This document shows positions 12,755 to 53,939 of a stretch of DNA of 64,000 nt, in pieces. The notes under the pieces were generated by a model. It did not search any database. It saw nothing but the letters and a program-made list of their open reading frames with translations, and was not told the origin of the DNA. The position numbers and the translations under genes are program-made. How positions within the stretch are numbered: the stretch's first letter is position 1; each line of letters begins with the position of its first letter. The DNA lies in the NCBI RefSeq assembly GCF_011040385.1, contig NZ_JAAIKB010000005.1, positions 372,001 through 436,000 on the forward strand, read 5' to 3'. This DNA is from Falsiroseomonas algicola (GTDB lineage Bacteria > Pseudomonadota > Alphaproteobacteria > Acetobacterales > Acetobacteraceae).

Positions 12755-12794
12755 GGCCATGTCCTCGATGCCGGGCGCCAACGCGGGGCGGTGG

Positions 12795-16402: not shown

Positions 16403-16407
16403 CGGGC

Positions 16408-17031: not shown

Positions 17032-17079
17032 GGATAGGCCTTCGTGAGGGGGCACGAAGGTTATGCGATTTCTTTTTTG

Positions 17080-17107: not shown

Positions 17108-17177
17108 GTTCGATGATCATAGTCATTGCGGTCCTGCCGCGGGCGATCCTGCCCGCTGGCGTTGGAGGACCGGTTCG

Positions 17178-18365: not shown

Positions 18366-18409
18366 ACGTCATGCTGCCCGGGGCATGATCGGCCTGAGCC
18401 GATGATGCT

Positions 18410-38049: not shown

Positions 38050-38293
38050 TCGGCCGCGGAGCCGCCACGACGTGGAACGGGGTGTCCAGGCGGCGTCAAT
38101 CACGGCATTTGATCGCGATGGCTTGTTCCATGCCGCGGAGTTTAGCGGAACCAACAGCCCGACGCAAAACGCAAACCGCTTTCGGAACATGCTGCGAGTG
38201 GGCTAGTCCCTTCATTGCGCTGCGTTTCCGGTCGGTGGCCGTGCATCCGGCGCCGGGGCCGACTTGCGGGCCGCCCGGTGCTAGTCTCGGCGC

Positions 38294-40153
38294 GTGCCGC
38301 CTCCCGAAGCCCCAGCCACGACCGCCCCACCGCTCCGCCTTCCCGCCCCGGTGCTCGCGGCGCTGCCCCACCTGCCATCCTTCTGGCCGGAACGCCGGGT
38401 GCTGGCGGCGGGCGATGCCCCCCCCGATGCGGCGCCGGAGGGTCTCGGCGCTCCGCTGGCCTGGACGCCAGGGCCCTTCCGCCCCTCCCGGCTCGCGGGG
38501 CGGGAGGTCCCGGTCCTGCTGGTGGTCGGCCCGGGGCCGGATCCGCTGGGGGCCGCGCTCAGGCATCCTCCGGCGCGGCCAGACCTGGCGCTGGCGCGAC
38601 GAGTGATGGCGGCGATGGCAGCCGGGCGCATCGGAGCGCCGGCGGGGCTGCCGGAGACCGGCGCCGTCCGGCCGGGCGCTGCGCTGCTCATCGATCCCTG
38701 CGACCCTGCGGAGGCGCCGGCAGCCCAGGCCCGCCTCGCGGCGCTGCGGGCTGCGGCGCGGGAGGTCGTCGTGGCGCCGGACCCCTTCGCAGACGGCCCG
38801 CCCGTGCTGCCGCCGGCCGACCTGCCGCGCCTGTCGCCCTGGGCCTTGCTGGCGGGTGCGGCCTCCATCCATGGCGCCTCCCGCCCGCTGGCCCTGCTCG
38901 CGCTGGCGGCGGGGGTGCCGGTGGCGGATGGGCCGCTGGCCGGCGCCGATCCCGCCGAGACCTGGGCCGCCATCGTGGCCGCCACCCGCGCCGCTGATCC
39001 CTTCACGCGCCGGCCCTGCTCGATCGAGCAGGGCCTGGCGATCCTGGCGCTGTGGCGGGAGCGGGAGGCGGAGGCGCGCGGCATCGCCGCCTGCCTCGGC
39101 GTGCATCCCTACAAGCGGGACCGGGTGCGGGCGCTGCTGGCGTCATCCGGACCGGCGCCGGGCTTCCATGGCCGCGCGATGCCCGCCATCGCGGCGGCGA
39201 AGGCGCGGGGCGGCGCGGTGCTGGCCTGGGCAGCCTCCGCGCCCGCTGACCTGCGCGCGCGCTGCGCGGCGGCGGGGGTGGAGCTGCGCTGGCTGGAGGA
39301 TGGCTTCATCCGCTCCGCCGGGCTCGGCGCCGCCTTCCGGCCGGGCGCCTCCTTCACCCTCGATTCCGGCGGCGCCTATTTCGACCCGGCCGCGCCGAGC
39401 GACCTCACGCGGCTGATCGAGGCGGGAGGCTTCGCGCCGGATGTCCTGGCTCGCGCGGCGGCGCTGCGCGCGGCGGTCGTGGCGCGGGGCATCACCAAGT
39501 ACAACCTTGGCGGCGCGGCGCCTTCCATCGCGGCGCCGCCGGGCCGGCAGGTAGTGCTGGTGCCGGGGCAGGTGGAGGACGATGCCTCCGTGCGGCTCGG
39601 CGGCGGCGCCATCCGGCGCAACATCGACCTGCTGCGCGCGGTGCGGGCGGCGGCGCCCGATGCGTTCATCGTCTACAAGCCGCATCCGGACATCGAGGCC
39701 GGGTTCCGCCGCGGCCGCATCCCGAAGGCCGAGTTGGCGGGGCTGGCCGACCAGGTGGCGGAGCGCGCGCCCATGGCGGCGCTGCTCGACCGCGTCGATG
39801 CGGTGCATACCCTGACCTCGCTGACGGGGTTCGAGGCGCTGCTGCGCGGCCTGCCCGTCACCTGCTGGGGGATGCCCTTCTATGCGGGCTGGGGGCTGAC
39901 CGAGGATCGGGGGGCCCTGCCGCCGGGCGCCCCGCCGCGGAGGCGGCGCGCGACGCTCGATGAGCTGGTCGCCGCTTCGCTGGTCCTCTACCCCCGCTGC
40001 ATCGATCCGCTGACCCTGCTGCCCTGCCCGCCGGAAGTGCTGCTGGACCGGATGGGGCAGCCCGGCCTGTTCCCGCCCGGCCGGTTTTCCGCCATCCGGG
40101 CGGCGGAAGGCTGGATCCGGCGCGGCGTCGCGCGCCTGAGGGGGTGGCGATGA
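38294..40153 (+). CDS. kpsC: KpsC-like capsule Kdo-transferase with a single recognisable module
   Basis: KpsC normally has two beta-Kdo transferase modules (GT99 and GT107) that extend the poly-Kdo linker. Here the C-terminal module is complete: LEDGFIRSAGLG (E335), ITKYNLGG, VLVPGQVEDDASV, FIVYKPHPDIEAGFRRG, VHTLTSLTGFEALL and FYAGWGLTEDR (about residue 529). The N-terminal 250 residues lack the corresponding EDGF and FYAGW motifs but keep the inter-module linker pattern DPFTRRPCSIEQGLAIL. So the first module appears degenerate. The start is GTG 38294. The gene overlaps the downstream SDR gene as ATGA. Confidence 0.88.
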   Translation: MPPPEAPATTAPPLRLPAPVLAALPHLPSFWPERRVLAAGDAPPDAAPEGLGAPLAWTPGPFRPSRLAGREVPVLLVVGPGPDPLGAALRHPPARPDLALARRVMAAMAAGRIGAPAGLPETGAVRPGAALLIDPCDPAEAPAAQARLAALRAAAREVVVAPDPFADGPPVLPPADLPRLSPWALLAGAASIHGASRPLALLALAAGVPVADGPLAGADPAETWAAIVAATRAADPFTRRPCSIEQGLAILALWREREAEARGIAACLGVHPYKRDRVRALLASSGPAPGFHGRAMPAIAAAKARGGAVLAWAASAPADLRARCAAAGVELRWLEDGFIRSAGLGAAFRPGASFTLDSGGAYFDPAAPSDLTRLIEAGGFAPDVLARAAALRAAVVARGITKYNLGGAAPSIAAPPGRQVVLVPGQVEDDASVRLGGGAIRRNIDLLRAVRAAAPDAFIVYKPHPDIEAGFRRGRIPKAELAGLADQVAERAPMAALLDRVDAVHTLTSLTGFEALLRGLPVTCWGMPFYAGWGLTEDRGALPPGAPPRRRRATLDELVAASLVLYPRCIDPLTLLPCPPEVLLDRMGQPGLFPPGRFSAIRAAEGWIRRGVARLRGWR

Positions 40154-40941
40154 AGGAAGCGCGGTCGGTGGTCATCAGCGGGGCGTCGCGGGGCCTTGGC
40201 GCCGCACTGGCGCGCCGCTTCGCGGCGCCGGGGATGCGGCTGCTGCTGCTGGCCCGCAGCCGAGCGGCGCTGGAAGGCGTGGCGGCGGAATGCCGCGCGG
40301 CGGGGGCGGCGGTGGAGATCGCCGTCGCGGACGTGACCGATGCCGCTTGCGTGGCCGAGGCGGTGCTGGGCTTCGAGGCAGCGGGCGCGGTGGATCTGGT
40401 GATCGCCAATGCCGGCACCTCCGCCGGGCGGGCGCCGGATGGGACGCCGGAGGATGGGGCGGCGGCGGCGCGGCAGGTGATGGTCAACCTGGTCGGTGCC
40501 ATCAACCTGGTCTCTCCCCTGCTGCCGGCGATGCGGGCGCGGCGGGCGGGGCAGGTGGCGCTGGTGGCCAGCATCGCGGGCTTCCGCGGCCTGCCGGATT
40601 TCCCGGCCTATTGCGCCAGCAAGGCCGGGCTGATCGCCTGGGGCGAGGGGCTGCGCGCCGCGGAAGGGCCGCGCGGCCTCCGCGTGACGGTGATCACGCC
40701 CGGCTTCTTCCGGAGCGCCATGGGAGACCGCTTCCACGGCGCGCGCCCCTTGCTGCTGGGGACGGAGGAGGCGGCCGCCAAGGTGCATCGCGCGCTGCTG
40801 CTCGGCGTGCCGCGTCTCGGCTTCCCCTGGCCGATGGCGCTCGGCCTGCGGCTGCTCGGCCTGCTGCCGCCCTTCCTCGGCGACCGGGCGGTGCGGCTGA
40901 TGCGCTTCCGCGTCACGCCGGAAGCGGATAGCCTGGGATGA
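40150..40941 (+). CDS. SDR family reductase, RkpH-like
   Basis: A 263-residue short-chain dehydrogenase. It shows VVISGASRGLGAALARRF, LVIANAGTSAG, catalytic S in VASIAGF, and YCASK. It is translationally coupled to KpsC. A KpsC neighbour of this type plus PKS and AOS genes parallels rhizobial RkpH beside RkpJ. The resemblance to 3-ketosphinganine reductases, which reduce the ketone of an AOS product, leads me to infer that it reduces the amino-ketone made by the gene at 43507-44901. It is convergent with kpsS, overlapping 29 bases. Confidence 0.85.
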   Translation: MKEARSVVISGASRGLGAALARRFAAPGMRLLLLARSRAALEGVAAECRAAGAAVEIAVADVTDAACVAEAVLGFEAAGAVDLVIANAGTSAGRAPDGTPEDGAAAARQVMVNLVGAINLVSPLLPAMRARRAGQVALVASIAGFRGLPDFPAYCASKAGLIAWGEGLRAAEGPRGLRVTVITPGFFRSAMGDRFHGARPLLLGTEEAAAKVHRALLLGVPRLGFPWPMALGLRLLGLLPPFLGDRAVRLMRFRVTPEADSLG

Positions 40942-42244
40942 TCGGCGCGCGCGCGGGCAGGCCGGCGCCGACGCGGTCGGCGTGCAGCGCCTCCACCGCC
41001 GCGGCGACGGCGATGGCGCGGCCCGCGGGCGCGTAGAAGACGCCGCGGAGCTGCGTCGTCGCCTGCAGCGCCGCCAGGAAATCGGCGCGGAAATCGGGCT
41101 CGGGTGGCGCGGCTTCGGTCCAGAAGCTGTCGAGCGACCCCTGGTGGGTCAGCCCCGGTACATCCCAGACCGCGGTGCCCAGCGCCTTCACCGGCTTGCC
41201 GAAGACCAGCGCCTTCAGCCCGACCGTGCTGTTGATGGTGACCAGGCCCTGCATGCCGTTGACCATGTCATCCAGGCTGCCGCCATGCGCCAGGTGCACG
41301 CGCCCGGAAAGCCCCGCCGCCGCCGCCAGCCGGCCGATCCGCGCGGTCCAGTCCTTCACGCAGGGATCGAGGGGATGGGCCTTCAGCAGCAGATGTGCCT
41401 CCGGCGCCGCATGGGCGGCGAAGGAGGCCAGCGTCTCCGCGATGGGGGTGTCGAGATCCGGGTAGCGGGAATAGGCGCGGACGGAGAAATCGGTCTCCAT
41501 CTGCATGGCGAAGAGCCAGTAGGGGCGGTTGCCGATCGCGGCCAGCGCGCGTTCCCCCTCCGCCCGCTCCGCGCCCCGGCGCAGCAGCCGGCGGGCGATG
41601 CCCCAATAGGTGATGGCGGGGTGGTGCAGCTGGTGTGACCGGTAGTGGCGGAAGGGCCAGGGGGCGATGGCGGCGAGGTGGTAGATCACGTCCCAGCTCG
41701 CCTGCCGGCCGAAATCGTCGCGCAGCCTTTCCGTCAGGTCGGCCGGCGGCAGCGACCGCGCCAGCGCCCGGATCTCGGCAGGGTCGCGGGGGAAGCGGCT
41801 GTCGCCGCCCATGCCGTCCCGCTCCAGCGTGATCCAGTCCGGGCGGAAATAGCCGAAATCCGTCACCACCACGGCGATGCCGCGTGACGCGGCGGCGGTG
41901 ATGGCGGCGCGGTGATAGGCGCGCTGCTCGCCCAGCAGCAGGATGTCGGTGATGCCGTGGCGGTCCAGGAAGCCCTCGATGAAGCCGGGCCAGTCCTCCG
42001 GCCGACCCTGGTAGTCGATGGCCTTGGGCTGGCCCTCCACCCGGCCCCAGAAGAGGCGATCCCCGAGGCAGAGGTTGATCCGGTGCACGCCATGGCCCCG
42101 CGCGGCGAGGCCGCGCGCCACTTCCAGGAAGAAGGGGCTGATCGGTCCCTGGAGGAACAGGAAGCGTCGGGAACCCTGGCGGGGGGCGTCCTGGGTCGCG
42201 TCGCGGGCAGGCGAGGGTGATGGCGACGCGTTAATCGATGACAT
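40913..42244 (-). CDS. kpsS: Capsule Kdo-transferase KpsS-like
   Basis: A 443-residue protein that in group 2 capsules adds the first Kdo to the lipid acceptor. The family pattern is FLFLQGPISPFFLEVARGLAARGHGVHRINLCLGDRLFW, ILLLGEQRAYHRAAI, VVTDFGYFRPDWITLERDGMGG, LLLKAHPLDPCVKDW, and NGMQGLVTINSTVGLKALVFGKPVKALG. It is a stand-alone minus-strand gene between kpsC and the lipid operon. Confidence 0.92.
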   Translation of the reverse strand: MSSINASPSPSPARDATQDAPRQGSRRFLFLQGPISPFFLEVARGLAARGHGVHRINLCLGDRLFWGRVEGQPKAIDYQGRPEDWPGFIEGFLDRHGITDILLLGEQRAYHRAAITAAASRGIAVVVTDFGYFRPDWITLERDGMGGDSRFPRDPAEIRALARSLPPADLTERLRDDFGRQASWDVIYHLAAIAPWPFRHYRSHQLHHPAITYWGIARRLLRRGAERAEGERALAAIGNRPYWLFAMQMETDFSVRAYSRYPDLDTPIAETLASFAAHAAPEAHLLLKAHPLDPCVKDWTARIGRLAAAAGLSGRVHLAHGGSLDDMVNGMQGLVTINSTVGLKALVFGKPVKALGTAVWDVPGLTHQGSLDSFWTEAAPPEPDFRADFLAALQATTQLRGVFYAPAGRAIAVAAAVEALHADRVGAGLPARAPIIPGYPLPA

Positions 42245-42358
42245 GGGGCCGACATAGCCATCATCGGTGCCGCGCCTGTCAATGCCGGGACCGTGACGGG
42301 CGGTTTCACGCGGTTTCCTTGGCTTCGCCGCATGAGCGGCGGCGCCCGTTCGGGCGCT

Positions 42359-42382
42359 CGGACCGGTCAGGCCACCGGTCCG
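42359..42382. terminator. Perfect hairpin after the lipid/capsule operon
   Basis: Arms 42359-42367 and 42374-42382 pair perfectly over 9 bp with a 6-base loop, directly after the stop of the GNAT gene. A second GC hairpin (GGCGCCCG-TT-CGGGCGCT) lies just beyond. No U-tract is present. The sequence matches the hairpin at 1-26 at 21 of 26 positions, so it may be a shared small palindrome. Confidence 0.5.
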
Positions 42383-42388
42383 CCAATA

Positions 42389-43510
42389 TCAATCGCCGGC
42401 CGGCATCCACCACAGCCGCCAGCGCCCCGTGACAGGGGCCGGCAGCCGCGCCATGGCGTTCAGCATCGCCGTGTTGTCCGCCAGGATCCAGGAGATCTCG
42501 ATGCGCCGCCAGCCGCGCCGCTCGGCCAGACCGAATCCGGCATCGAGCAGCGCGCCCATGGCCAGCGCCGAGGCGGTGTGGCGGCGGAAGGCGCGGGTGA
42601 TGCCGAGCATGGGGATGCGCGCCTGGTCCGCGCCGGCCGGAATCCGTCCAAGCAGCGCCGCCAGCAGCCGAGGCCAGCCCCACGGCAGCAGCCTTCCATC
42701 GGCGGGCAGCGCGGCCTCGATGTTCGGCACCAGCGACAGCAGGCCTACCGGCTGCCCGTCCCAGGCGGCGAAGAAGACCTCCCCCCGCCAGAGCAGCGGG
42801 CGGAGCACGGTCGCGAGCGTCGTGACCTCCGCGGGCTGGAGCGGCACGGCGCCCCAGTTCTCCGACCAGGCATCGTCGAAGAGCGCGGCGACGAGCCGCA
42901 CCTCCGCCGCGTAGTCGCCGCGCCGCAGCGTTCGGATCGACAGCCGGGCCATGTCGTCGCCACGGGCGGCGGCGAGGCGGGCGAAGCGGGCGCGATGGAC
43001 CTCCCGCCCCAGATCGACGGTGCAGGCCAGCACGTCCTTGGCCGGTTGCAGCCCCGCACCGTCGAGCGCCGGCGGCAGCCAGGGGGGGGAGGCCGGCATG
43101 CGCAGCATCGGCGCGCGATCGAAGAAGCCGGCCTGGGCGCCGACCTCGTGGTTGATGGTGAAGGAGAGCGGGCCGAGCAGCCGGTCCCGCCCGCGGGCCC
43201 GTGCGAAGCCGCGCGCGGCGTCCAGCAGGGCGCGGAGCGTCGCGGGATCCTCCTCCGTCGCCATGAAGCCGAAGGTGGCGGGGGCGTCGGCGTCATCCGG
43301 CACGCAGGCGGCGATGCGCCCGACCGCGCTTCCATCGCGCCAGGCGAGGAAGCGCGCGACGGCGTGCGATTCGAGAAAGCCGTTGGTGGTGCGGTGGAAC
43401 TGCCGCCGCTCCTCCCACCGCAGCCGGGGCGCCCAGCCGGGCAGGCGGGCGGGCAGGGCGTGGAAGGCTTCCTCCTCGGCCGCGCTCCGGACTTCCCGGA
43501 CCTCCGTCAC
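42389..43510 (-). CDS. GNAT-like N-acyltransferase of the lipid operon
   Basis: A 373-residue GNAT-fold protein with a duplicated-looking layout. The N-terminal half has RFLAWRDGSAVGRIAACV and GFMATEEDPATLRALLDAA. The C-terminal half has EVFFAAWDGQPVGLLSLVPN and a last region AERRGWRRIEISWILADNTAMLNAM resembling the end of GNAT domains. Large GNAT-fold N-acyltransferases of this kind include the bacterial ceramide synthase described in Caulobacter. From its position after an AOS gene I infer that it N-acylates the sphingoid-like amine. The start is GTG 43510, overlapping the AOS stop as GTGA. Confidence 0.75.
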   Translation of the reverse strand: MTEVREVRSAAEEEAFHALPARLPGWAPRLRWEERRQFHRTTNGFLESHAVARFLAWRDGSAVGRIAACVPDDADAPATFGFMATEEDPATLRALLDAARGFARARGRDRLLGPLSFTINHEVGAQAGFFDRAPMLRMPASPPWLPPALDGAGLQPAKDVLACTVDLGREVHRARFARLAAARGDDMARLSIRTLRRGDYAAEVRLVAALFDDAWSENWGAVPLQPAEVTTLATVLRPLLWRGEVFFAAWDGQPVGLLSLVPNIEAALPADGRLLPWGWPRLLAALLGRIPAGADQARIPMLGITRAFRRHTASALAMGALLDAGFGLAERRGWRRIEISWILADNTAMLNAMARLPAPVTGRWRLWWMPAGD

Positions 43511-44901
43511 CCCGCGAGGTCGGCGGGGGAGACGCCGTCATTGGCCGCGACCAGCGCGGCGACGGCATCGCGGATGTCCCGCTCCTCATGCTCGGCGGAG
43601 AGGAAGAAACGCAGCCGCGCCGCCTTCTCCGGCACGGCGGGGAAGATGATGGGCAGCGCGTTCACGCCGCGCTCGAGCAGCGCGGCGGAGACGCGGATGG
43701 CGCGCACCGAGCTGCCGAGCACGATCGGCACGATGCCGAGGCCGGCGGAGGCGCCGGTATCGAAGCCATGGGCGCGGCAGAGGTCGCGGAACAGCGTCGC
43801 ATTGGCCTGCAGCTTCGCCACCCGCCAGGGCTCCGCCTGCATCACCCCGAGCGCCGCGAGGGCGGAGGCGGCCAGCGGCGGCGCCAGGCCCACGGAATAG
43901 ACGAAGCCCGGCACGGTGTGGCGCATCCAGTCGATCAGGTCGCGCCTGCCCGTGATGTAGCCGCCGCAGGCGCAGAGCGTCTTGGAGAGCGTGCCCATCC
44001 AGATGTCGACCTCCGAGGGGTCGATGCCCGCGGCCTCGAACACCCCGCGCCCGGTGGCGCCGACGACGCCCAGGCCATGCGCGTCGTCCACCATCAGCCA
44101 GGCGTCATGCTTGCGCGCCATGGCGACGAAGGCGGCGAGGTCCGGGACATCGCCATCCATGGAATAGTGGCCCTCCACCACCAGCAGCGCGCGGGCGGCG
44201 CCGCGGCGGGCGGCGGCCAGTTCGCGTTCCGCCGCGCGGGCGTCGTTATGGGCGAAGCCGATGCGCCGCGCGCCCGACAGCTTGGCACCCTCCACCGCCG
44301 AATTGTGGATGGCGGCGTCATGCACGATCAGGTCGCGCGGGCCCATCAGGTGGCCGATGACGGTGACGTTGGTGGCATGGCCGCTGACCAGGGCGAGGGC
44401 CGCTTCCGCGCCGTAGTGCCGCGCCAGCGCCGCTTCCAGCGCCGCATGCACGGGCCTTTCCCCGGAGACGAGGCGGGAGGCGGAGGCGGAGATGCCGTAG
44501 CGCGCCATGGCCTCCGTCGCCGCCTGGTGCAGCCGCGGATCGCCGTTCAGGCCGAGATAGTCGTACGAGCCGAAATTGATGGTGTCCCGGTTGCCGACCA
44601 GGCTGTGCGCGCCGGCGCGACCTTCATGCGTGCGGAAGAAGGGGCTTTCCATGCCGAGGGCCGCGAGGCCTTCCTGGAACAGGCCCCAATCCTTGAGGTT
44701 CTGGATGCTGCCGAAGCCGCGCGTATCCGCGGCGGATTGCGCTTCCTGCCCTTCCCGCCGCCGGGCCAGGCGCTGCACCAGCGCCAGGCGGGCGGCGGTG
44801 GAGAGGCCGAAGCCCTGTCCGCGTGCCATGACTGAAAACCCCCGCGGTGAGTGGACGGAACGGCCGGCTGGCTTTCGCCAGGAACCGGGTCCGGTGGTCA
44901 T
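43507..44901 (-). CDS. Alpha-oxoamine synthase (RkpG/SPT/KBL-like)
   Basis: A PLP-dependent enzyme of 464 residues that condenses an acyl thioester with an amino acid, with decarboxylation, to give a 2-amino-3-ketone. It has NFGSYDYLGLNGDP, VSGHATNV, the cofactor motif VDDAHGLGVVG (Asp272/273, His275), and MGTLSKTLCACGGYI with the PLP lysine K307. This is the family of serine palmitoyltransferase, KBL and BioF, and matches rhizobial RkpG. The amino acid (serine, glycine or alanine) cannot be read. ATG 44901 overlaps the PKS stop as ATGA. An ATG at 44829 is an alternative. Confidence 0.9.
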   Translation of the reverse strand: MTTGPGSWRKPAGRSVHSPRGFSVMARGQGFGLSTAARLALVQRLARRREGQEAQSAADTRGFGSIQNLKDWGLFQEGLAALGMESPFFRTHEGRAGAHSLVGNRDTINFGSYDYLGLNGDPRLHQAATEAMARYGISASASRLVSGERPVHAALEAALARHYGAEAALALVSGHATNVTVIGHLMGPRDLIVHDAAIHNSAVEGAKLSGARRIGFAHNDARAAERELAAARRGAARALLVVEGHYSMDGDVPDLAAFVAMARKHDAWLMVDDAHGLGVVGATGRGVFEAAGIDPSEVDIWMGTLSKTLCACGGYITGRRDLIDWMRHTVPGFVYSVGLAPPLAASALAALGVMQAEPWRVAKLQANATLFRDLCRAHGFDTGASAGLGIVPIVLGSSVRAIRVSAALLERGVNALPIIFPAVPEKAARLRFFLSAEHEERDIRDAVAALVAANDGVSPADLAG

Positions 44902-47900
44902 TCCGCGGCGCGGATGTCCCCGGATCCGGGTTCGTAGGCTTCCACCAGCGTGGCTATGCTGGCCTCGCGATCCGGCGGCGCAAGGGCGGAGGCCGCGATC
45001 TGCCGTGCCAGGGCGGCCACCGTCAACTCCTCGCTGAGCGCGGAGAGCGCCACCTGGACGCCGAGGCGCTGTTCCAGCCCGCCGCGCAACTCCATGGCGC
45101 CCAGGCTGTCGAGGCCGAGCGCCGTCACCCCCGCATCGGCGGCCACCGCTTCCGGCGGCAGGCGCAGGATGCGGGCGATCTCCTCCGTCACCAGGCGGAG
45201 GATGACGGCCTCGGCCTCCGCCACGGGGACGGTGGCGAGCCAGGCGCGAAGATCCTCCCGCGGGGCGGCATCGGCTGTGGCCTCGCCGGCGAGGGCGGCC
45301 AGCATCGGCTCCTGCATGATGGGCAAGGCGAGGCGTGCTTCCGCGGCGCCGAGGCGCACGACCAGTGGCGCGGCGTCCCCGGCTTCCAGCAGCGGTGGCA
45401 GCGCCTCCAGCGCCTCCTGCGCCGTCATGGCGGCGATGCCGAGGCGGCGGTTCAGCTTGGCGGCCTTGTCGCCATCCGCCGCCAGCATGCCGACATCGGC
45501 GATCGGCCCCCAGGCGACGGCGAGCGCCGGGCGGCCGGCGGCGCGGCGGCGGCGGGCGAGGGCTTCCAGCGCGGCGTTCGCGGCGACGTAATTGGCCTGG
45601 CCGGGATTGCCGAAGGCGGTGGTGGCGCTGCTGAACAGCAGGAAGAGCGTCAGCGGGTCCGTTTGCGTCAGCCGGTCCAGGTTCTCCGCCGCCTGCAGCT
45701 TGGGCGCCAGCACGCGGGCGAAGCGTGCCGAATCCATGGCGGGGGCGGCGCCGTCATCCAGCACGGCGGCGGCATGCACGATGCCGCCGATCGGCCGCGC
45801 GGCCCGGATTTTCGCCAACGTCACGGCCAGGGCCTCGGCGTCCGTCGCGTCGCAGGCATGGATCGCGGCGCGGGCGCCGAGCGCGGCGAGGTCGCGCAGC
45901 GCCGTGGCCTGGTCGCCCGTGACGTCGGCGGCGATGGCGCCGTGGCGGCTGACCAGCGCGAGGTGGCGGGCGCCGCGCGCCGCCAGCCACTTGGCCGTGG
46001 CGAGGCCGAAGCCCCGCGTGCCGCCCACGACGACGATGGTGGAGTCGCGCGGCGGCGCCCAGGGGGCGGCGGCTTCCGGCAGCGGCGCCGGGGGGCGGAT
46101 GACCAGCTTGCCGATGTGGGAGGAGGCCTGGAGGGTGCGGAAGGCGGCCTCCACCTCCTCCGGCCCGAAGGCGGCATGGGGCAGGGGGAGGAAGGTGCCA
46201 TCCTGCAACCCGTCCCGCACCTGGCCGAGCAGGCGCGACGCGACACCCGGGCGGGCGCGCGGCAATTCGTCCACATCCACCGCGAAATAGCTGGCATTGC
46301 GGCGCAGCGGGCGGATCGGCGCGCGGCGGTTCTCGACATAGTCGCGCTTGCCGAGCTCGACGAAGCGGCCGAAGGGTTTCACCAGGCCGAGGCTCCGTTC
46401 CATCGCCTCCCCGGCCAGGGAGTTGAGGACGACGTCCACGCCGTCGGGCCATTCGGCGCGGAGCGCATCGGCGAAGCCGGGATCGCGGCTGTCCAGCACC
46501 AGCTCCGCCCCGGCGGCGCGCAGGAAGGCGCGCTTGGCGGGGCTGCCCGCCGTCATCGCCACGCGGGCGCCGATATGCTGCGCGACCTGCAGCGCGGCGA
46601 GGCCGACGCCGCCGGCACCGCCATGGATCAGCACCGTCTCGCCGGCCTGGAGGTTGGCGCAGGATTCGAGTGCGTGCAGCGCGGTCAGGAAGGCGACGGG
46701 GATGGTGGCGGCGGCCTCGGCCTCCAGCCCATCGGGCAGGGGGGCGATCGCCTCCACCCGCGTGACGACGCGCGCTGCCAGCGCCGCGGGCGCGAAGCCG
46801 AAGACGCGGGTGCCGGGGCGGATGGCGACGCCGGGGCCGGTGGCGGTGACGGTGCCCGCGCATTCCATGCCGAGCGTCGGGCCGGCGAAGCCGGCTTCCA
46901 GCACCTCCTCCGGCAGCAGGCCCTGCGCCCACATCAGGTCGCGGAAATTGAGGCCCGCCGCCTCCACTGCGATCGCGACCTCCCCGGGGCCGGGGGCGCG
47001 CTGGGGTGCGGCTTCCCAGCGCAGCGTGCCGAGGCGGCCGGGCTGCGCGATGCCGAGCGTCAGCGGGCCGGCCGGCGGGGAGGCCGGCACGGGCAGAAGG
47101 CGCGGCACCAGGCGCTGGTCGGCGCCGAGCGTGACCTCCGCCTCCGGCGTCGCGGCATCGAGCTCGGCGGCCAGGCGCCGGGCGGCGGCGGCGGGGGCCA
47201 GGCCGGGGGCGAGGTCGATGCGACGCGGACGGAGAGAGGGCATCTCATTGGCCAGGACGCGCATCAGCCCTACCAGCGCGGCCGCTTCCGGCGCGTGGCG
47301 GCCTTCCGCCGGTTGCTGGCCGCCACTCGTCACCAGCACGAAGCCGGCGGCCTGGCCCTGCGCGGCCTCCGCGAGGCGAGTGATGGCGGCGAGGGTGGGG
47401 GCGAGCGCTGCCGCTTCCGGCGCGGCGCACAGGATGATCCGGGCGCCGCGCAGCGCGGCAGGGTCGATCGCGCCGTCCAGCCTCTGGCGCGCGACGCTGC
47501 CGCCGCGCCGCAGCAGCCGGGCCGCGAGGGCATCGGCGAGCGGGAGGGAGGCGTCATCGGCCAGCAGCAGGGTGCGCGGCGGCGCGGGCGGCGCGGCCGC
47601 GGGGGGCGGCGGGGCCTCGGCGGCCAGCATCACGGCGGGCCAGGGGGCGCAGGCCAGGGCTTCGGCGGCGACGGCGCGGAAGCCCGCATCGGCCAGCCGC
47701 CCGGTCCACATGGCGGCATCCGGCAGCGATCCCCCCGCCGATCCCGCGGGTTCGGGGCCGAGGCCGGTCCACCAGGCCGGGTCCTGGCCGCAGACGAAGG
47801 TCCAGACGCGGGCGGGCAGCGGCTCCGCCAGCAGCAGCGCGCCGCCTTCCGCCAAAGCGAGGCGCAGCGCGGCGGCCAGCGCCACGCCGGCGCGGGACCG

Positions 47901-50900
47901 CGCCGCAGGGGCGAGGCCGATGACGAGGTCCGCCACCAGCGGCGGCGGCGTATCCGACAGCGGGTCCCAGACCGCGCCGTGCAGGGCGCTGCCGGCGGGC
48001 AGGCCGGGCGGCAGCGGCGGCAGGGAGACATGGCCATCGCCCGCCGCGACATAGACCAGGGCGCGGCCGAGCGGCGCCAGGCGGGCCAGAACGCGCCGCG
48101 CCAGCACGCCGCCGGCGGTGCCGATTTCCAGGATGCGAAGCGGGCGCGTCTCCGGCCAGGCGGCCGCCAGCGCGCCGACCGCCGCGGCCAGCGCCTCCGC
48201 CAGCTGCGCCATGGCGAGGCCCTGGGCGGGTGGCGGGCCCGCATCCCGCCGCTGGCCGCGCAGCGCCTCCGGCAGCCGTTCGGCGGCCTCCGCGATCCAG
48301 GCGAGGTCGAGGGCGAGGCCGGGCTGCTCGGCCAGGACGGAGCGCCAGATTTCCTCGGCCGGCGGCAGCGCCGCATCGGGCAGCAGGCGGATGCCGCCCG
48401 GCATGCCGCGCGCCAGCGGCTCCGCGGCGCCATCCTCGATCAGCGCGCGGCGGAGGAAGGCCTGGTAGGGGGAGGCTTCCGGCGCCGCATCGGCCTGGGC
48501 CGGGTCGGCGGCATGCAGCGCCTGGGCCGCGGCGGCGACATGCGCTTCCAGCAGCAGGGCGGCTTCCGTCAGGTCCATGCCGGCGGCGGCGGTGCGGGCT
48601 GCTTCCAGCGCGGGCGCCAGGGCGGGGGCGGGGGGCGGGCCTTCCGCGGCGGGGGCGAGCGCGATGCGCCAGGCGGCGTCCGTGGCGGGGGCGGCGGCGT
48701 GCTGGGTGAAGAGCTGGAAGACCGCCCCCTCCACCCGCGCCACCGCCTGCCCGGCGGCGTCGCGCAGCACGGCGCGGGCGGTGATGGAGCGTGCGCCGCG
48801 GCGGGTCAGCGTGACCTCCGCCAGCACCGGCGGGATGGCGCCCGGGCGCGTCACCAGCCGGGCGAAGCGGACGGGGGCGAGGCCGATGCCGGGCGGCAAC
48901 CCCGCCTCCCCCAGCAGGCCGAACAGCCCCTGCAGCGCGCCGTCGAGGCGGGAGGGATGCAGCAGGAAGCCGGCATCGGGCGGCGCGGCCTGCGGCAGCG
49001 CCAGGCGCACCAGGGCGCGGCCGGCGGCGGGGCTCGCTTCCACCCGCTCCACCGCCGAGAAGGCGGGGCCGTAGGTCAGGCCGAGGGTCGCCGCGAGGTG
49101 GCGGATCGCGCTGCCCTCGATCGGCGCGGCGCCGGGCAGGGGGGCGCGGGGCGGCAGGGCGAGGGCGGTGGCGGCGACGGCATGGGCCTCGCCTTCCGCA
49201 TGCAGGGCCCAGGGGTCTTCCGTCAGGCGCCGACGGCTTTCGAGGCGGAAGGCGCCGGCGGCATCCAGCGTGCAGCGCACCTCCCGCGTCCGGCCGGGCT
49301 CCAGCGCCAGGGGGCGGAGGATGCGGAATTCCGCGACTTCCAGCGCCACCGCCTCGGGATGGCGGGTGCGCAGCGCGGCGAGCGCCATGTCGAGCATGGC
49401 GGAGGCCGGCAGCACCGCGTCGGGGCCGAGGCGATGGTCGGCCAGCCAGGGTTCGAGGTCGGTGTCCAGCGCCCGCGTCCAGATCCCCGGCTCCGGCCCG
49501 CGGCGGAAGCCCAGCAGCGGGTGGTCATGATCGGGGTCCGAGAGGCGGGAGGCCTCCGTGGTCCCGGGATGCCAGGCCGGCTTGCGGTCAAAGGGCGTCA
49601 GCGGCAGGCGGCGTTCGGCCGGGCCCTGGAAGGCGGGGCCCTCCCGCGGGTCGGCGCCGGCGACGGCGAGCCGGTCCGCGATGGCGGGGAAGGGGTCGAT
49701 GCCCTCCGCATCGCGCCGGCTGAGCGTGGCCAGCGGCGCGGCCTCCACGCCGGCGGCGCGGCAGCCTTCCCGCATGTAGGATTGCAGGACGGGGTGGGGG
49801 CCGATTTCCAGGAACAGCCGCGCGCCCTCGGCGAGCGCGGTGCGGATGGCGCCCTCGAACTGCACGGGCTGGCGGAGGTTGCGCCACCAGTAGAGGGCGC
49901 CCGCGGCGGCGCCCTCCAGCACGGCGCCCGTGACGGTGGAGACCAGGGGCAGGTGGCCGGCGCCGGGGGCGAGGCCGGCCAGATCCTCCAGCAGCCCGTC
50001 CCGGACCGGATCCATGGCGGCGCTGTGGAAGGCGAAGTCGAGGTCGAGCGGGATGAAGGAGTGGCGCCGCGCCTCCGCCACCGGCCGCAGCGCGGCCAGC
50101 GCCTCCGCCGGGCCAGCCAGCGTCACGGCGGCGGGCGCGTTCAGCGCCGCGACCTCCAGCCCCGCGCCGGCGGGGCCGAGCCCCGCGATCATCGCCTGTG
50201 CCTCGGCGGCGGAGGCGCCGAGTGCCGCCATGCGGCCCACGCCCTGCATCCGCTGCTGGTGCCGGCTGCGCGCCACCACCAGGCGGGCGGCGGCCGGGAG
50301 GTCCAGGATTCCCGCGGCATGGGCGGCCGCGACCTCGCCGACCGAATGGCCGAGCACGAGGTCGGGGCGGATGCCCTGCGCCGCCAGTGCGCGCAGGCTC
50401 GCGACCTGGATGGCGAAGAGCAGGGGCTGTGCGATGTCGGTGGCGGCCAGCTGTTCCGCCGTGACGCCGGCCCGCAGCATGGAAAGCGGCGACCAGCCGA
50501 GCAGGGGTTCCAGCGCCGCATCGACGGGGGCGAAGGCGCGCTGGAAATCGGCGGAATGGGCCAGCGCGGCGCGGGCCATGCCGGCATGCTGGGCGCCGTT
50601 GCCGCTGAAGACGAAGCAGAGCCGGCCGGGGGCGGCCGGGGCGATGCCGCTGGTCGCGCCTTGGGGCGAGGGGTCCTGCCGCTGCCGCCAGGCGGCGATG
50701 GCATCGGCCAGCGCATCCCCATCCCTGCCGCGCAGGGTCAGGCGGTGGGGCAGCAGGTCCCGGTGACGGGCGGCGCCACGCGCCAGGGCGGCGGTGGTGG
50801 GTGCGTCCTGACCGCGCAGCCGCTGTTCCCAGCGCGCGGCCAGCGCCGTGAGCGCGGCGGCGGAGCGGGCGGAGAGCAGGAGCGGCGGACTGGCGCCGGC

Positions 50901-52283
50901 CGTGGCGGCCTGCGCCAGCGCCTGCTGCGCCGGGGCCTGCCTGACCAGCACCGTCGCGTTGGTGCCGCCGAAGCCGAAGGAATTCACCCCCGCGACGGTG
51001 CCGGCGGCCTCGTTGAGCGGTTCGAGCCCCTTCACGACGCGCACATTCAGCGTGGCGAAGTCGATGGACGGGTTGGGGTTCGCCTGGTGCAGCGTCGGCG
51101 GGATGGCGCCGCGTTCCAGCACCAGCAGGGCCTTGAGCAGCCCGGCGAGGCCGGAGGCGGGTTCCAGATGCCCGATATTCGTCTTGATGGAGCCGATCGG
51201 CAGGGCGGCCGCGCGGCCGGTGGCGGCCTGGCCGATGGCCCAGGCCTCGCTCGGGTCGCCGACCTGGGTGCCGGTGCCATGCGCCTCGAAATAGGCCAGG
51301 TCATCCGGGGTGACCCCGGCATCCTCCATCACCTGGCGGATCAGGCTCGCCTGCGCCTCCCGGTTCGGCAGGGACAGGCCGATGGTGCGGCCGGCGCTGT
51401 TCACCCCGGTGCCGAGGATGACGCCGCGGATCGGGTCCCCGGCCGCCAGCGCGGCCTCCAGCGGCTTCAGCAGCAGCGCGACGCCACCCTCCGCCCGGAC
51501 ATAGCCATCGGCGGCCGCATCGAAGGCGCGGCAGCGGCCGGAGGGGGAGAGCATGCCGGCGCGGGAGAAGCCGACGAAGGGATAGGGGGAGAGCAGCATC
51601 TGCACGCCCCCGACCACCGCGGCATCGAGACGCCCCGCGGCCAGCGCCGTGCAGGCGGCGTGCAGCGCGACGAGGGAGGAGGAGCAGGCGGTGTCGATCG
51701 TCTCCGCCGGGCCGCGCAGGTCGAACACGTTGGTCAGGCGGTTCGCCAGGATCGACAGCGCGTTGCCCGTCATGAAGTAGCGGTCGCTGCCGGCATGGTC
51801 GGGCAGGCGGACATCGGCGTAGTCCGTCGTCGATCCGCCGATGAAGACGCCGATGTCGCGCCCGGCGATGGCGGAGGGGCGCCAGCCCGCATCCTCCAGC
51901 GCTTCCGCCGTGACTTCCAGCAGCACGCGCTGCTGCGGGTCCATCTCCGCCGCTTCGCGGGGGGAGATGCCGAAGGCGCCGGCATCGAAGGCGCGCGCAT
52001 CGCCGATGGTGCCGGCGGCGAAGGTGTAGGACCGCCCGGCCTCGTTGCGACGGGGGTGGTAGAAGGCGGGCAGGGCGAAGCGGTCGGCCGGCAGGGTGGT
52101 GACCGCATCGCCGCCGGATTCCAGCAGCGGCCAGAGCGCGTCGAGCGTCGGCGCGCCCGGCAGGCGGCAGCCGGCCCCTACGATGGCGATCGGCATGGCA
52201 GGCCCGGTTGCACCGCCGGCGTGGCGGTCGCGCTGGTCCCTGCCTGGCCGTGTCGCCCGTCCTGGACGATCGGCACCCGTCAT
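44898..52283 (-). CDS. Iterative type I polyketide synthase (KS-AT-DH-psiMT-ER-KR-ACP)
   Basis: A 2461-residue highly reducing type I PKS, RkpA-like in context. KS: DTACSSS (C200), EAHGTGT (H335), NIGHLE (H372). AT: GHSVGE (S647) and AFHSAAMD (H753), which fits malonyl-CoA. DH: DHRLGPDAVLP (H950) and LHPSRLDGALQ (D1114). About 1300-1550: a methyltransferase-like region whose motif reads EIGTAGG, so it is probably inactive. ER: HGGAGGVGLAALQVA (1887-1894). KR: GGTRGFG, LDD (2175-2177), Y2232, N2236. ACP: GLDSLGAMEL (S2393). There is no thioesterase or reductase release domain, so release likely needs the coupled AOS enzyme. It would make a reduced fatty chain. Confidence 0.95.
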   Translation of the reverse strand: MTGADRPGRATRPGRDQRDRHAGGATGPAMPIAIVGAGCRLPGAPTLDALWPLLESGGDAVTTLPADRFALPAFYHPRRNEAGRSYTFAAGTIGDARAFDAGAFGISPREAAEMDPQQRVLLEVTAEALEDAGWRPSAIAGRDIGVFIGGSTTDYADVRLPDHAGSDRYFMTGNALSILANRLTNVFDLRGPAETIDTACSSSLVALHAACTALAAGRLDAAVVGGVQMLLSPYPFVGFSRAGMLSPSGRCRAFDAAADGYVRAEGGVALLLKPLEAALAAGDPIRGVILGTGVNSAGRTIGLSLPNREAQASLIRQVMEDAGVTPDDLAYFEAHGTGTQVGDPSEAWAIGQAATGRAAALPIGSIKTNIGHLEPASGLAGLLKALLVLERGAIPPTLHQANPNPSIDFATLNVRVVKGLEPLNEAAGTVAGVNSFGFGGTNATVLVRQAPAQQALAQAATAGASPPLLLSARSAAALTALAARWEQRLRGQDAPTTAALARGAARHRDLLPHRLTLRGRDGDALADAIAAWRQRQDPSPQGATSGIAPAAPGRLCFVFSGNGAQHAGMARAALAHSADFQRAFAPVDAALEPLLGWSPLSMLRAGVTAEQLAATDIAQPLLFAIQVASLRALAAQGIRPDLVLGHSVGEVAAAHAAGILDLPAAARLVVARSRHQQRMQGVGRMAALGASAAEAQAMIAGLGPAGAGLEVAALNAPAAVTLAGPAEALAALRPVAEARRHSFIPLDLDFAFHSAAMDPVRDGLLEDLAGLAPGAGHLPLVSTVTGAVLEGAAAGALYWWRNLRQPVQFEGAIRTALAEGARLFLEIGPHPVLQSYMREGCRAAGVEAAPLATLSRRDAEGIDPFPAIADRLAVAGADPREGPAFQGPAERRLPLTPFDRKPAWHPGTTEASRLSDPDHDHPLLGFRRGPEPGIWTRALDTDLEPWLADHRLGPDAVLPASAMLDMALAALRTRHPEAVALEVAEFRILRPLALEPGRTREVRCTLDAAGAFRLESRRRLTEDPWALHAEGEAHAVAATALALPPRAPLPGAAPIEGSAIRHLAATLGLTYGPAFSAVERVEASPAAGRALVRLALPQAAPPDAGFLLHPSRLDGALQGLFGLLGEAGLPPGIGLAPVRFARLVTRPGAIPPVLAEVTLTRRGARSITARAVLRDAAGQAVARVEGAVFQLFTQHAAAPATDAAWRIALAPAAEGPPPAPALAPALEAARTAAAGMDLTEAALLLEAHVAAAAQALHAADPAQADAAPEASPYQAFLRRALIEDGAAEPLARGMPGGIRLLPDAALPPAEEIWRSVLAEQPGLALDLAWIAEAAERLPEALRGQRRDAGPPPAQGLAMAQLAEALAAAVGALAAAWPETRPLRILEIGTAGGVLARRVLARLAPLGRALVYVAAGDGHVSLPPLPPGLPAGSALHGAVWDPLSDTPPPLVADLVIGLAPAARSRAGVALAAALRLALAEGGALLLAEPLPARVWTFVCGQDPAWWTGLGPEPAGSAGGSLPDAAMWTGRLADAGFRAVAAEALACAPWPAVMLAAEAPPPPAAAPPAPPRTLLLADDASLPLADALAARLLRRGGSVARQRLDGAIDPAALRGARIILCAAPEAAALAPTLAAITRLAEAAQGQAAGFVLVTSGGQQPAEGRHAPEAAALVGLMRVLANEMPSLRPRRIDLAPGLAPAAAARRLAAELDAATPEAEVTLGADQRLVPRLLPVPASPPAGPLTLGIAQPGRLGTLRWEAAPQRAPGPGEVAIAVEAAGLNFRDLMWAQGLLPEEVLEAGFAGPTLGMECAGTVTATGPGVAIRPGTRVFGFAPAALAARVVTRVEAIAPLPDGLEAEAAATIPVAFLTALHALESCANLQAGETVLIHGGAGGVGLAALQVAQHIGARVAMTAGSPAKRAFLRAAGAELVLDSRDPGFADALRAEWPDGVDVVLNSLAGEAMERSLGLVKPFGRFVELGKRDYVENRRAPIRPLRRNASYFAVDVDELPRARPGVASRLLGQVRDGLQDGTFLPLPHAAFGPEEVEAAFRTLQASSHIGKLVIRPPAPLPEAAAPWAPPRDSTIVVVGGTRGFGLATAKWLAARGARHLALVSRHGAIAADVTGDQATALRDLAALGARAAIHACDATDAEALAVTLAKIRAARPIGGIVHAAAVLDDGAAPAMDSARFARVLAPKLQAAENLDRLTQTDPLTLFLLFSSATTAFGNPGQANYVAANAALEALARRRRAAGRPALAVAWGPIADVGMLAADGDKAAKLNRRLGIAAMTAQEALEALPPLLEAGDAAPLVVRLGAAEARLALPIMQEPMLAALAGEATADAAPREDLRAWLATVPVAEAEAVILRLVTEEIARILRLPPEAVAADAGVTALGLDSLGAMELRGGLEQRLGVQVALSALSEELTVAALARQIAASALAPPDREASIATLVEAYEPGSGDIRAAE

Positions 52284-52370
52284 GCTGCCACCCTCACCCG
52301 GGCCAGTGTGCCTGGCCTCGCGGGCGGTGGTGGCGGGGCGGGACGGCGCCGCCGGACGAGGTCGCGGCCA

Positions 52371-53645
52371 TCACGGATGCCCTTCATCGCGCCGTCCGAC
52401 GCCCGGATCCGGCCTGGCCATGGCGGGCAGGGCGGGCAGCGGGGCGGAGGGGCCGATCGGGCGCTGCGCGAGGCGGACCATCAGGCGGTCCACCTCGATG
52501 AAGTGACGCTCCCAGCTCGGCGGCTTCCAGGCGGCGAGGCGGCCGAGCTGCGCGCGGCGCCCAGTGCTGTCGGCCCGGGCATAGTCGAGCACGGCGCCGC
52601 GCCAGGCGCTGCCATCCAGCGGATCCAGGTAGTCCGGCACCGCGCCGCCCACTTCCCGCAGCGCGGCGAGGTCGGAGGCGATGGCCGGGACGCCGAGGGC
52701 GAGGGCTTCCGCCAGCGGCAGGCCGAAGCCCTCCGCGAAGGAGGGGAAGAGCAGGGCGCGCGCGCCGCGCAGCAGGGAGGCGACTTCCCGGTCCGGCAGC
52801 GGCCCGGCTTCCCGCACCAGGCCATCCAGGGCGCTGCAGCGCTCCAGCATGTCCAGCACGTTCTCGTTCTCCCACCCGCGGCGGCCGACGACGACCAGGC
52901 GGGGCGCGGCGGCCCCATGGGTGCCGGCCAGCTGGCGCCACAGATTCAGCAGCAGCAGGTGGTTCTTGCGCGGCTCGATGGTGCCGAGCACGACGAAGTA
53001 GGGGCGCAGCGCCACCGGCGGCGCCTCCACCATCGGCGGCGTGACGCCGAGCGGCGCCACCGCGACCTGGGGCGGGGAGGGGCGGGCGCTCAGCCAGGGC
53101 GTCAACTCCGCGGCCGTGGCCGCCGAATTCACGATGATGGCGTCCGCCAGGGCGGCGGTGGTGACGATGCGGCGGCGATGCTTCTCGGCATGTCCGGCGC
53201 GGGCGAATTCGGGATGGTGCAGGGGGATCAGGTCATGGATCAGCGGCACGAACTGGCAGCCCTGCCGCCGCAGCGCGGCGATCCGGGCCGGGCGTTCCAG
53301 GGCGCGGTGCGACACCAGCAGGAAGGATTTGGGGCCGGGCTTGCGCAGCGCTTCCACCAGCGCGCCGCGGCCGAAGGGCAGCGCCAGCCGCGCACGCCGG
53401 GCGGCGCCCGTCGCGATGCGCGTGCCGCTCTCCCACGCCTCCTCCAGCGCCGTCACCAGTTCACGGACGAGCGAGGCGGGCAGGGCGGAGAAGCCGAGGA
53501 GCGGAACTTCCGCGACGAATGTGCATTCCGTTGGCGACAGATTGGCCCAGTGACGGGCGTAGGCCAGCTCGACCCGGTCGATCCCGGAGGGTGCCGTGCG
53601 ATGCGCGACGCTCAGCAACCGGGAGATGTCGAGGAACACATGCAT
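52371..53645 (-). CDS. Glycosyltransferase family 4 at the head of the lipid operon
   Basis: A 424-residue GT-B enzyme. The N-terminus VFLDISRLLSVAHRTAPSGIDRVELAYARH and later FVPLIHDLIPLHHPEF, FVVLGTIEPRKNHLLLLNLW, and donor site PSFAEGFGLPLAEALALGVP are family hallmarks. It lies 87 bp upstream of the PKS on the same strand. It probably adds a sugar to the capsule repeat or to the lipid acceptor. ATG 53645 begins directly at the GT motif; the frame upstream lies in the promoter region. The C-terminus is a short proline-rich tail. Confidence 0.9.
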   Translation of the reverse strand: MHVFLDISRLLSVAHRTAPSGIDRVELAYARHWANLSPTECTFVAEVPLLGFSALPASLVRELVTALEEAWESGTRIATGAARRARLALPFGRGALVEALRKPGPKSFLLVSHRALERPARIAALRRQGCQFVPLIHDLIPLHHPEFARAGHAEKHRRRIVTTAALADAIIVNSAATAAELTPWLSARPSPPQVAVAPLGVTPPMVEAPPVALRPYFVVLGTIEPRKNHLLLLNLWRQLAGTHGAAAPRLVVVGRRGWENENVLDMLERCSALDGLVREAGPLPDREVASLLRGARALLFPSFAEGFGLPLAEALALGVPAIASDLAALREVGGAVPDYLDPLDGSAWRGAVLDYARADSTGRRAQLGRLAAWKPPSWERHFIEVDRLMVRLAQRPIGPSAPLPALPAMARPDPGVGRRDEGHP

Positions 53646-53939
53646 CCTAGCGCGCTCCTCGCCAGGAATGCGCCCACCACCCGAAGATATTCGCCTGATG
53701 GCGGGCCAAACGTCTGATCTCCTTGGCAAGGATGTCAATCATCTAGCGAATGACGCTTTCCCGCGGCACACATTTGTGTGTGAATGTGTGCGGTGCGTCA
53801 ATCTCTTTTTTTCAACGAAAGTGAAACTTTCGCGCGACACGTGTGCTGGTCGCGCAGGGGTTGCCGGACCGTCGGCCCGGCTGCACCTGCTGGCTCGCTT
53901 TATCGCGGTTGTCGATGACAAACCTGCAAACGGCGGCGC
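53646..53939. promoter_or_regulatory. Regulatory region upstream of the glycosyltransferase-PKS operon
   Basis: A 294-bp gap with a conspicuous AT-rich core (53760-53850). It contains GCACACAT (53766-53773) and ATGTGTGC (53784-53791), a perfect 8-bp inverted repeat with 10-bp spacer. A second perfect inverted repeat is CGAAAGT (53816-53822) and ACTTTCG (53826-53832), with a T-tract on its left. A possible -35 TTGACG lies on the minus strand near 53795-53800. The hairpins are not followed by U-tracts on the minus strand, so operator sites are more likely than terminators. Confidence 0.5.

Follow-up and report, generated by a model that had tools for sequence, protein, structure and literature searches.

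A group 2-type capsule locus of Falsiroseomonas algicola with a ceramide synthase homologue and a putative sphingolipid anchor of its own

We report on a capsule locus in a 64,000-nucleotide stretch of DNA ("the window") of Falsiroseomonas algicola (RefSeq assembly GCF_011040385.1, 6.56 Mb in 90 contigs; contig NZ_JAAIKB010000005.1, positions 372,001 to 436,000), which combines capsule genes of the kps type with genes for a polyketide synthase (PKS), an alpha-oxoamine synthase (AOS), an SDR reductase and a GNAT-like protein. Specifically, the minus strand carries in order a GT4 glycosyltransferase, the PKS, the AOS, the GNAT-like protein and KpsS; KpsC and the SDR lie on the plus strand, convergent with KpsS, and are followed on the minus strand by a small envelope protein, KpsM, KpsT, KpsE and KpsD. 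A sequence-only reading had seen here an rkp-1-like capsule locus making a sphingoid or ceramide-like lipid anchor, and all the genes that it had named (Kps export, KpsC, SDR, KpsS, GNAT-like, AOS and PKS) are where it had placed them. The nearest named loci are those of Roseomonas ponticola, an Acetobacteraceae metagenome-assembled genome and Falsiroseomonas stagni; Falsiroseomonas bella has such a locus as well. The features are as follows (window coordinates, strand; Kdo, 3-deoxy-D-manno-octulosonic acid).

33223..35037, minus: KpsD-type outer-membrane polysaccharide export protein (PF02563 Poly_export and SLBB; TIGR03028 E 2.2e-23, below cut-off)
35027..36235, minus: KpsE/BexC/CtrB-type inner-membrane export protein (TIGR01010 E 4.8e-69, below the curated cut-off)
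36204..36854, minus: KpsT-type ABC transporter ATPase (PF00005)
36866..37693, minus: KpsM-type ABC transporter permease (PF01061; NF050053 KpsM E 2.5e-36, below cut-off)
37690..38190, minus: small 17-kDa-antigen-like envelope protein, between KpsM and KpsC (PF16587)
38294..40153, plus: KpsC-type Kdo transferase (PF05159; KpsC crystal structures)
40144 (or 40150)..40941, plus: SDR reductase in RkpH/SgaC position, presumed 3-ketosphinganine or 3-keto-ceramide reductase (PF00106; YxxxK, SGASRGLG)
40913..42244, minus: KpsS-type initiating Kdo transferase, RkpJ homologue (PF05159 E 1.3e-68; trees)
42389..43510, minus: putative tandem-GNAT N-acyltransferase, homologue of bacterial ceramide synthase (CerS/bCerS/YghO; alignment, trees, predicted fold)
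43507..44829, minus: AOS of RkpG/WcbT/SgaB type (the longest open reading frame starts at 44901; conserved start near 44829)
44898..52283, minus: iterative-type reducing PKS, KS-AT-DH-ER-KR-ACP, of RkpA/WcbR/SgaA type, without thioesterase (domain search)
about 52371..53648, minus: GT4 glycosyltransferase, which closes the block and adjoins the PKS in relatives (PF13692/PF00534; synteny)

KpsC, KpsS and the KpsMTED exporter are all present and constitute the gene set of a group 2 (KpsCS) capsule. KpsC matched crystal structures (6mgd, E 2.8e-53) over residues 327-570, and its N-terminal 300 residues gave no match in the libraries used; KpsS is 42% identical to RkpJ. The gene for the 17-kDa-antigen-like envelope protein (37690-38190) occurs in relatives that retain Kps export genes at the locus. 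Opposite the PKS and GT4 genes the plus strand has an open frame of 2956 codons (44847-53717); this is an effect of the high GC content, and GC by codon position favours the minus strand.

The end of KpsC and the start of the SDR overlap by 10 bases (GTG at 40144) or by four (ATGA; ATG at 40150). Four-base overlaps had been proposed to stitch the PKS, AOS and GNAT genes together. The GTGA between AOS and GNAT is real and conserved (GTGA in nine and ATGA in one of ten relatives inspected). The ATGA between PKS and AOS is likewise present in the window sequence, but is probably an artefact of choosing the longest open reading frame. In all six relatives inspected the PKS stop is separated by a spacer from the AOS, whose start is a conserved Met that corresponds to M25 of the window frame (near 44829), and in three relatives the extra N-terminal AOS stretch contains a stop codon; an ATGA coupling of these two genes was therefore rejected.

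The PKS contains the full set of reducing domains, its ACP carries an LGLDSL motif, and by eye its catalytic DH motif is slightly off consensus. Just 67 residues remain past the ACP serine motif, which leaves no thioesterase and agrees with the earlier statement that the enzyme lacks a release domain. It is 37% identical to Sinorhizobium meliloti RkpA over nearly the full length. His, Asp and Lys motifs are present in the AOS, which is 53% identical to RkpG, and its closest solved proteins are the serine palmitoyltransferases (SPT) 3a2b and 8guh (E 2e-66). The SDR is 40% identical to SDRs of Paraburkholderia and Pseudomonas and 33% to RkpH. An AOS tree of 61 rows places the capsule type (42 rows, including RkpG and the Paraburkholderia, Pseudomonas and window proteins) in one clade (support 100/97), apart from the 13 ceramide SPTs; the AOS of locus L113, which lies beside a GNAT of the CerS-type family, groups with the ceramide SPTs. 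A member of the capsule clade also forms the C-terminal part of a fused protein of ~1600 amino acids on a plasmid of an actinomycete, Streptomyces anthocyanicus (L030, 10311-15134), in a stretch with no annotated Kps gene.

A homologous PKS-AOS pair, SgaAB of Pseudomonas fluorescens MYb115, makes C24-C28 sphinganines (PMC12134224, 2025; papers are cited by PubMed Central (PMC) number). In the same study further SgaAB lipids were assigned by mass as phosphoglycerol-sphingolipids, SgaB took L-Ser nearly exclusively over alanine and glycine, the SDR SgaC was proposed as ketosphinganine reductase, and 6101 homologous sga clusters were counted, mostly in Burkholderia. Four AOS-family genes were found in the F. 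algicola genome; we recognised no canonical ceramide SPT among them, and the capsule locus would therefore be the sphingolipid source of this organism. The genome has a second PKS-AOS pair (contig G000:C16, about 1-20000, locus L096), with an AOS 52% identical to that of the capsule locus; its neighbours include glycosyltransferases, a GDP-mannose-dehydratase-like gene and an ABC transporter, and neither a CerS-type GNAT nor KpsC/S was detected there.

The GNAT-like protein matched no Pfam or NCBIfam model, and a single-sequence search of the PDB was empty. With tblastn against plasmids it matched 26 records; one is annotated yghO, and another is a gene on a Roseomonas haemaphysalidis plasmid (37% identity) in a ceramide-type cluster with an SPT-scoring aminotransferase-family gene, an acyl carrier protein (ACP), an acyl-AMP ligase, LptF/G and a CDP-alcohol transferase. 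Pairwise alignment with YghO of Escherichia coli BL21 gave 28% identity over the full length (E 2e-43), and in that genome an acyl-AMP ligase, an epimerase, an ACP and spt adjoin yghO. E. coli B yghO and Caulobacter CC_1154 are listed as the acyl-CoA N-acyltransferase of ceramide synthesis (PMC9386255); CC_1154 has been named CerS (PMC11324152) and a Caulobacter acyltransferase bCerS (PMC11087976). Invariant columns in a 19-sequence alignment include GRI, GP, W215, R298, E338, W341 and N346. The predicted structure (pLDDT 92) has tandem GNATs as its best PDB matches (2wpw, E 6e-15), and 18 of 35 members of the family do match PF00583. In the GNAT tree, 19 of the 22 GNATs beside a capsule-type AOS group together in a single clade (100/99) within the proteobacterial CerS/YghO group, with those of L025, L072 and L113 outside it; the clade persisted in a short-search tree that included G343 but not L113 (20 of 22, SH-like approximate likelihood ratio test (SH-aLRT) 98). 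The empty Pfam, NCBIfam and PDB searches had suggested a generic acetyltransferase without kin. This view did not survive the tblastn matches, the pairwise alignment and the family tree: by sequence the protein is homologous to bacterial ceramide synthase, and its predicted fold is that of a tandem GNAT. Together with the published sphinganine synthesis by a homologous PKS-AOS pair, this favours the sphingoid/ceramide idea of the sequence-only reading.

The product might still be sphingoid-like and not a ceramide, if the AOS used glycine or alanine (giving a 1-deoxy base) or if the GNAT moved a short acyl or acetyl group or acted on a sugar. The AOS falls below every curated NCBIfam equivalog cut-off shown, that for SPT included (271 and 288 bits against cut-offs of 500 and 640; two ceramide-operon SPTs clear the 500-bit cut-off with 606 and 599), and serine as its substrate is therefore taken from SgaB only. 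RkpG and the AOS of genome G181 likewise pass no substrate-specific model, and several of the tandem GNATs nearest in fold are acetyl-CoA enzymes by title. The full-length kinship and invariant residues common to the GNAT and CerS/YghO argue for a ceramide, as does the serine preference of SgaB, and we regard a non-ceramide product as improbable.

Gene order was compared in a sample of 39 related genomes, F. algicola included, and in 18 loci of named Acetobacteraceae-type relatives that overlap with this sample. A capsule-type GNAT (at least 50% identity; three of 17 matching genomes, with 30-33%, were set aside) is present in 14 of the 39 genomes, in each case with a KpsS match within 447 bases. 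PKS, AOS and GNAT are consecutive in 16 of the 18 loci (among them L088, where the PKS appears as two open frames), and the two exceptions are short contigs whose first bases already fall within the GNAT gene; KpsS is next in 16 of 18, the exceptions being L060 and L063. This PKS-AOS-GNAT order goes beyond chance, and PKS-AOS-GNAT-KpsS is conserved in Falsiroseomonas/Roseomonas and kin. Of the 23 other loci, ten have an AOS/SPT in the stretch; in the remaining 13, several of which are short contigs, none was detected. PKS-AOS-GNAT recurs in two other sampled families: in G181 it stands with SDR-KpsS, and AasR-CerR-AcpR-SPT and a CerS of their own lie elsewhere in the genome, so that the capsule-locus set is a second, dedicated copy beside a ceramide operon; in G343, KpsC/S are on another contig. 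In L144-L146, KpsC-KpsS-SDR-LTA-PKS-AOS form one run (LTA, lipoteichoic acid synthase-family protein).

Co-occurrence with KpsC/S, which the sequence-only reading had proposed as a check for PKS, AOS and GNAT, was counted for the capsule-type AOS. Among 398 genomes of the phylum the capsule-type AOS (E<=1e-115) is present in 24, and KpsC/S were found in 15 of these 24 compared with 44 of the 374 others (p 3e-8). Among 240 genomes of the class the corresponding numbers, with an AOS limit of >=440 bits, are 7 of 9 and 8 of 231 (p 2.6e-8), and AOS and KpsC/S lie within 10 kb in six of the nine. For a 650-bit AOS subset (the 440-bit and 650-bit limits were both set after the scores were seen) they are 14 of 15 (the exception being G565) and 45 of 383, with AOS and KpsC/S within 15 kb on one contig in 9 of 15.

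Moreover, the KpsS phylogeny follows the presence of the lipid genes. A short-search tree of 65 rows has one branch (SH-aLRT 98, no bootstrap) that contains all 28 AOS-linked KpsS and 8 of 9 KpsS with an AOS elsewhere in the genome, i.e. 36 of 37 from genomes with an AOS, compared with 4 of the 26 for which no AOS was found (five of these 26 rows are plasmid stretches, in which only the stretch was searched). The branch also takes 2 of 2 KpsS from loci with LTA-synthase-family and desaturase genes, the window KpsS lies outside the branches that hold the other 22 of 26, and a 44-row tree gave a similar picture (93/96).

On an Acidisoma sp. plasmid (locus L025, 3850-15092) KpsC/S are accompanied by an AOS, an SDR, a GNAT of CerS type and a protein of the sterol-desaturase family that is a candidate hydroxylase. 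The stretch has no PKS; its product is possibly a hydroxylated ceramide anchor, for which the fatty acids would come from elsewhere. On plasmid pLA5 of Novosphingobium pentaromativorans (L139, 8630-13224) SDR, LTA-synthase-family and sterol-desaturase-family proteins lie beside KpsS, with neither AOS nor PKS in the stretch; sphingomonads produce sphingoids anyway, and this capsule may borrow those of the host.

Of the known systems, rkp-1 of S. meliloti shares homologues of the window PKS, AOS, SDR and KpsS (RkpA, RkpG, RkpH and RkpJ, respectively), and to this extent the earlier parallel stands. The rkp-1 record holds KpsF, RkpJ, RkpI, RkpH, RkpG and RkpA, and RkpI, which is unannotated there, is a PF00884 sulfatase/LTA-synthase-family protein; the window locus, in contrast, has the GNAT instead, and KpsC and the Kps export genes in the same block. 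The record is not among the 26 plasmid records matching the window GNAT, and equating the GNAT with RkpI was rejected on account of the family to which RkpI belongs. A Paraburkholderia RkpI homologue found no match at E<=1e-10 in the F. algicola genome (two PF00884 proteins lie on other contigs) or in 10 of 12 other genomes tested. With no close RkpI homologue and with the CerS homologue added, the window thus corresponds to an rkp-1-like locus minus RkpI plus a ceramide synthase homologue, and in this respect the parallel fails. As a rule, however, replacement of RkpI by the GNAT is unsupported, since G181 and G343 have the GNAT plus an LTA/sulfatase-type gene beside KpsC/S, and in L060 and L063 an LTA-type match lies in the same stretch as the GNAT.

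The Burkholderia wcb-type loci on Paraburkholderia and Caballeronia plasmids both have SDR, PKS and AOS (WcbR-type PKS and WcbT-type AOS), with KpsS in the Paraburkholderia stretch. Unlike the window, each of them also encodes an LTA-synthase-family protein and a deacetylase of the LpxC family, and the Paraburkholderia stretch has a small GNAT of 227 amino acids (PF00583) distinct from the CerS-type protein. In Burkholderia-type loci the deacetylase gene lies between PKS and AOS (L027, 12917-13831; L032, 12937-13863; L149). A Pseudomonas plasmid PKS-AOS locus (L029) has KpsC-like, LTA-synthase-family, SDR, KpsS, KdsA, KdsB and KpsF genes. Its SDR is the fifth gene after the AOS, an arrangement that the sga locus tags RS19800 and RS19775 would also permit, which is a suggestive likeness at most. 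The wcb/rkp clusters of Alpha- and Betaproteobacteria have been described as type I PKS genes with capsule synthesis and export genes (PMC3908369); the swf sponge PKS cluster was rejected as nearest kin since the authors of that work separate it from wcb/rkp and its partners differ. With wcb in Burkholderia (PMC3908369) and sga in Pseudomonas (PMC12134224) already known, placement outside rhizobia, which had been taken as a sign of novelty, is not new.

The sgaAB(C) cluster shares with the window an iterative PKS, an AOS and an SDR; differently from the window, no ceramide synthase is named and no capsule context given in the excerpts of PMC12134224. The rhodobacterial ceramide pathway (aasR-acpR-spt-cerR-cerS; Caulobacter, E. 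coli B) shares a CerS-family N-acyltransferase and an AOS; its acyl chain comes from AasR/AcpR and that of the window from the PKS, CerR is epimerase-type whereas the window reductase is a classical SDR, and the capsule AOS and most capsule GNATs form clades separate from the ceramide-pathway enzymes. The E. coli group 2 capsule (kps) shares KpsCS and KpsMTED, but in the published scheme the terminus is (lyso)phosphatidylglycerol with Kdo, and PKS, AOS and GNAT have no part in it (PMC10148158). The locus belongs with the rkp/wcb/sga loci and is no wholly new system. What is new is a capsule-dedicated ceramide synthase homologue, and the proposed link of such loci to sphingolipid-anchored capsules; no paper on a sphingolipid capsule anchor was found in listings of open-licence PMC papers.

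On balance, the gene content suggests that the locus probably makes its own lipid anchor, a sphingoid base N-acylated to a ceramide, for an ABC-transporter, group 2-type capsule, and that KpsS/KpsC would use this lipid as acceptor. Synthesis of a lipid by the locus is well supported, while its link to the capsule is inferred from genomic data. The iterative PKS would build a saturated long acyl chain on its ACP, and the AOS would free this chain through a decarboxylative condensation, for which L-serine is the most likely amino-acid partner, to give 3-ketosphinganine; for these two steps the homology to SgaAB makes a strong case by analogy. The SDR would then likely reduce the ketone, and the CerS-family tandem GNAT, as its family suggests, likely adds an N-acyl chain before or after reduction to yield a (dihydro)ceramide (in Caulobacter, acylation before reduction has been argued; PMC11087976). 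Gene linkage and the KpsS tree point to a KpsS that sets the first beta-Kdo on the sphingolipid, directly or via a phosphoglycerol headgroup, in place of (lyso)phosphatidylglycerol; KpsC would extend the Kdo linker, capsule glycosyltransferases would build the polymer and KpsMTED would export it. We infer the amino-acid choice of the window AOS, the N-acyl donor, the order of steps and a covalent bond between lipid and capsule. Where sister loci lack the GNAT, the anchor would have one chain: a sphinganine that the RkpI/LTA-synthase-family protein probably furnishes with a phosphoglycerol head, which would make it a close mimic of lyso-phosphatidylglycerol. Phosphoglycerol-sphinganine, as assigned in Pseudomonas, is chemically close to lyso-phosphatidylglycerol. 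A switch of acceptor is thereby plausible, and RkpI/LTA-synthase-family proteins would have an obvious function in it.

Besides the AOS scores, several observations weigh against this proposal. Nine of the 24 AOS-type genomes have no KpsC/S match at E<=1e-25, which together with the second PKS-AOS pair in the F. algicola genome indicates that PKS-AOS lipids can serve otherwise. On the Stellaceae contig L072 no Kps gene was detected in the stretch that holds PKS, AOS, SDR and GNAT. With these cases, the counter-evidence named in the sequence-only reading, a PKS operon widely conserved away from Kps genes, is found in part. PKS-AOS also occurs without a capsule-type GNAT, with KpsS in G011 and G017, with KpsS about 190 kb off in G007 and with an SDR in G020, so that N-acylation is no essential part of the design. 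The F. algicola genome has no close RkpI-type homologue, and a phosphoglycerol step would be missing or done otherwise. Four of the 26 KpsS without a found AOS sit in the AOS branch, and the KpsS of G044, a genome with an AOS, sits outside it. Finally, the SgaAB lipids, both the sphinganines and those assigned as phosphoglycerol-sphingolipids, were found as free lipids, and the string "capsul" has no occurrence in the main text of that paper (PMC12134224).

Much of this would fit a free ceramide-like outer-membrane lipid or a secreted metabolite, made by PKS, AOS, SDR and GNAT alongside a capsule with an ordinary (lyso)phosphatidylglycerol anchor, and KpsS of E. coli does act on phosphatidylglycerol (PMC10148158). 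Set against this, KpsS adjoins the lipid genes, its phylogeny tracks their presence, six-gene Kps-lipid runs exist and rkp-1 mutants reportedly lose the surface capsule; we consider a free lipid rather unlikely, though the most serious of the alternatives. That PKS-AOS can adjoin glycosyltransferases in the absence of KpsC/S would also suit an acyl chain or aminoketone that decorates the polysaccharide or primes polymer synthesis with no membrane anchor. This is very improbable, given that a member of the CerS family adjoins the AOS and that coupling to KpsS/KpsC, known for Kdo at the lipid end, recurs. Overall, the observation made in the sequence-only reading is confirmed and its interpretation partly supported.

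To our knowledge the lipid product of the rkp-1/wcb genes has been a gap since the 1990s, and we know of no role of sphingolipids as capsule anchor. Tentatively, and at somewhat less than even chances, KpsC/KpsS capsules may be of two chemical sorts, one anchored by phosphatidylglycerol and one by a PKS-AOS-SDR sphingolipid (one-chain in rkp/wcb/sga, with sphinganyl-phosphoglycerol made by RkpI/LTA-type proteins; a two-chain ceramide here), with KpsS split into matching acceptor classes; the predicted switch of KpsS acceptor is open to direct assay. If the proposal is true, the rhizobial K antigen, the Burkholderia capsule genes and the PKS-derived sphingolipids reported from Pseudomonas in 2025 would be one pathway, and a sphingolipid would attach the capsule to the cell; a long-standing question on a whole class of capsule genes would then be nearer to an answer.

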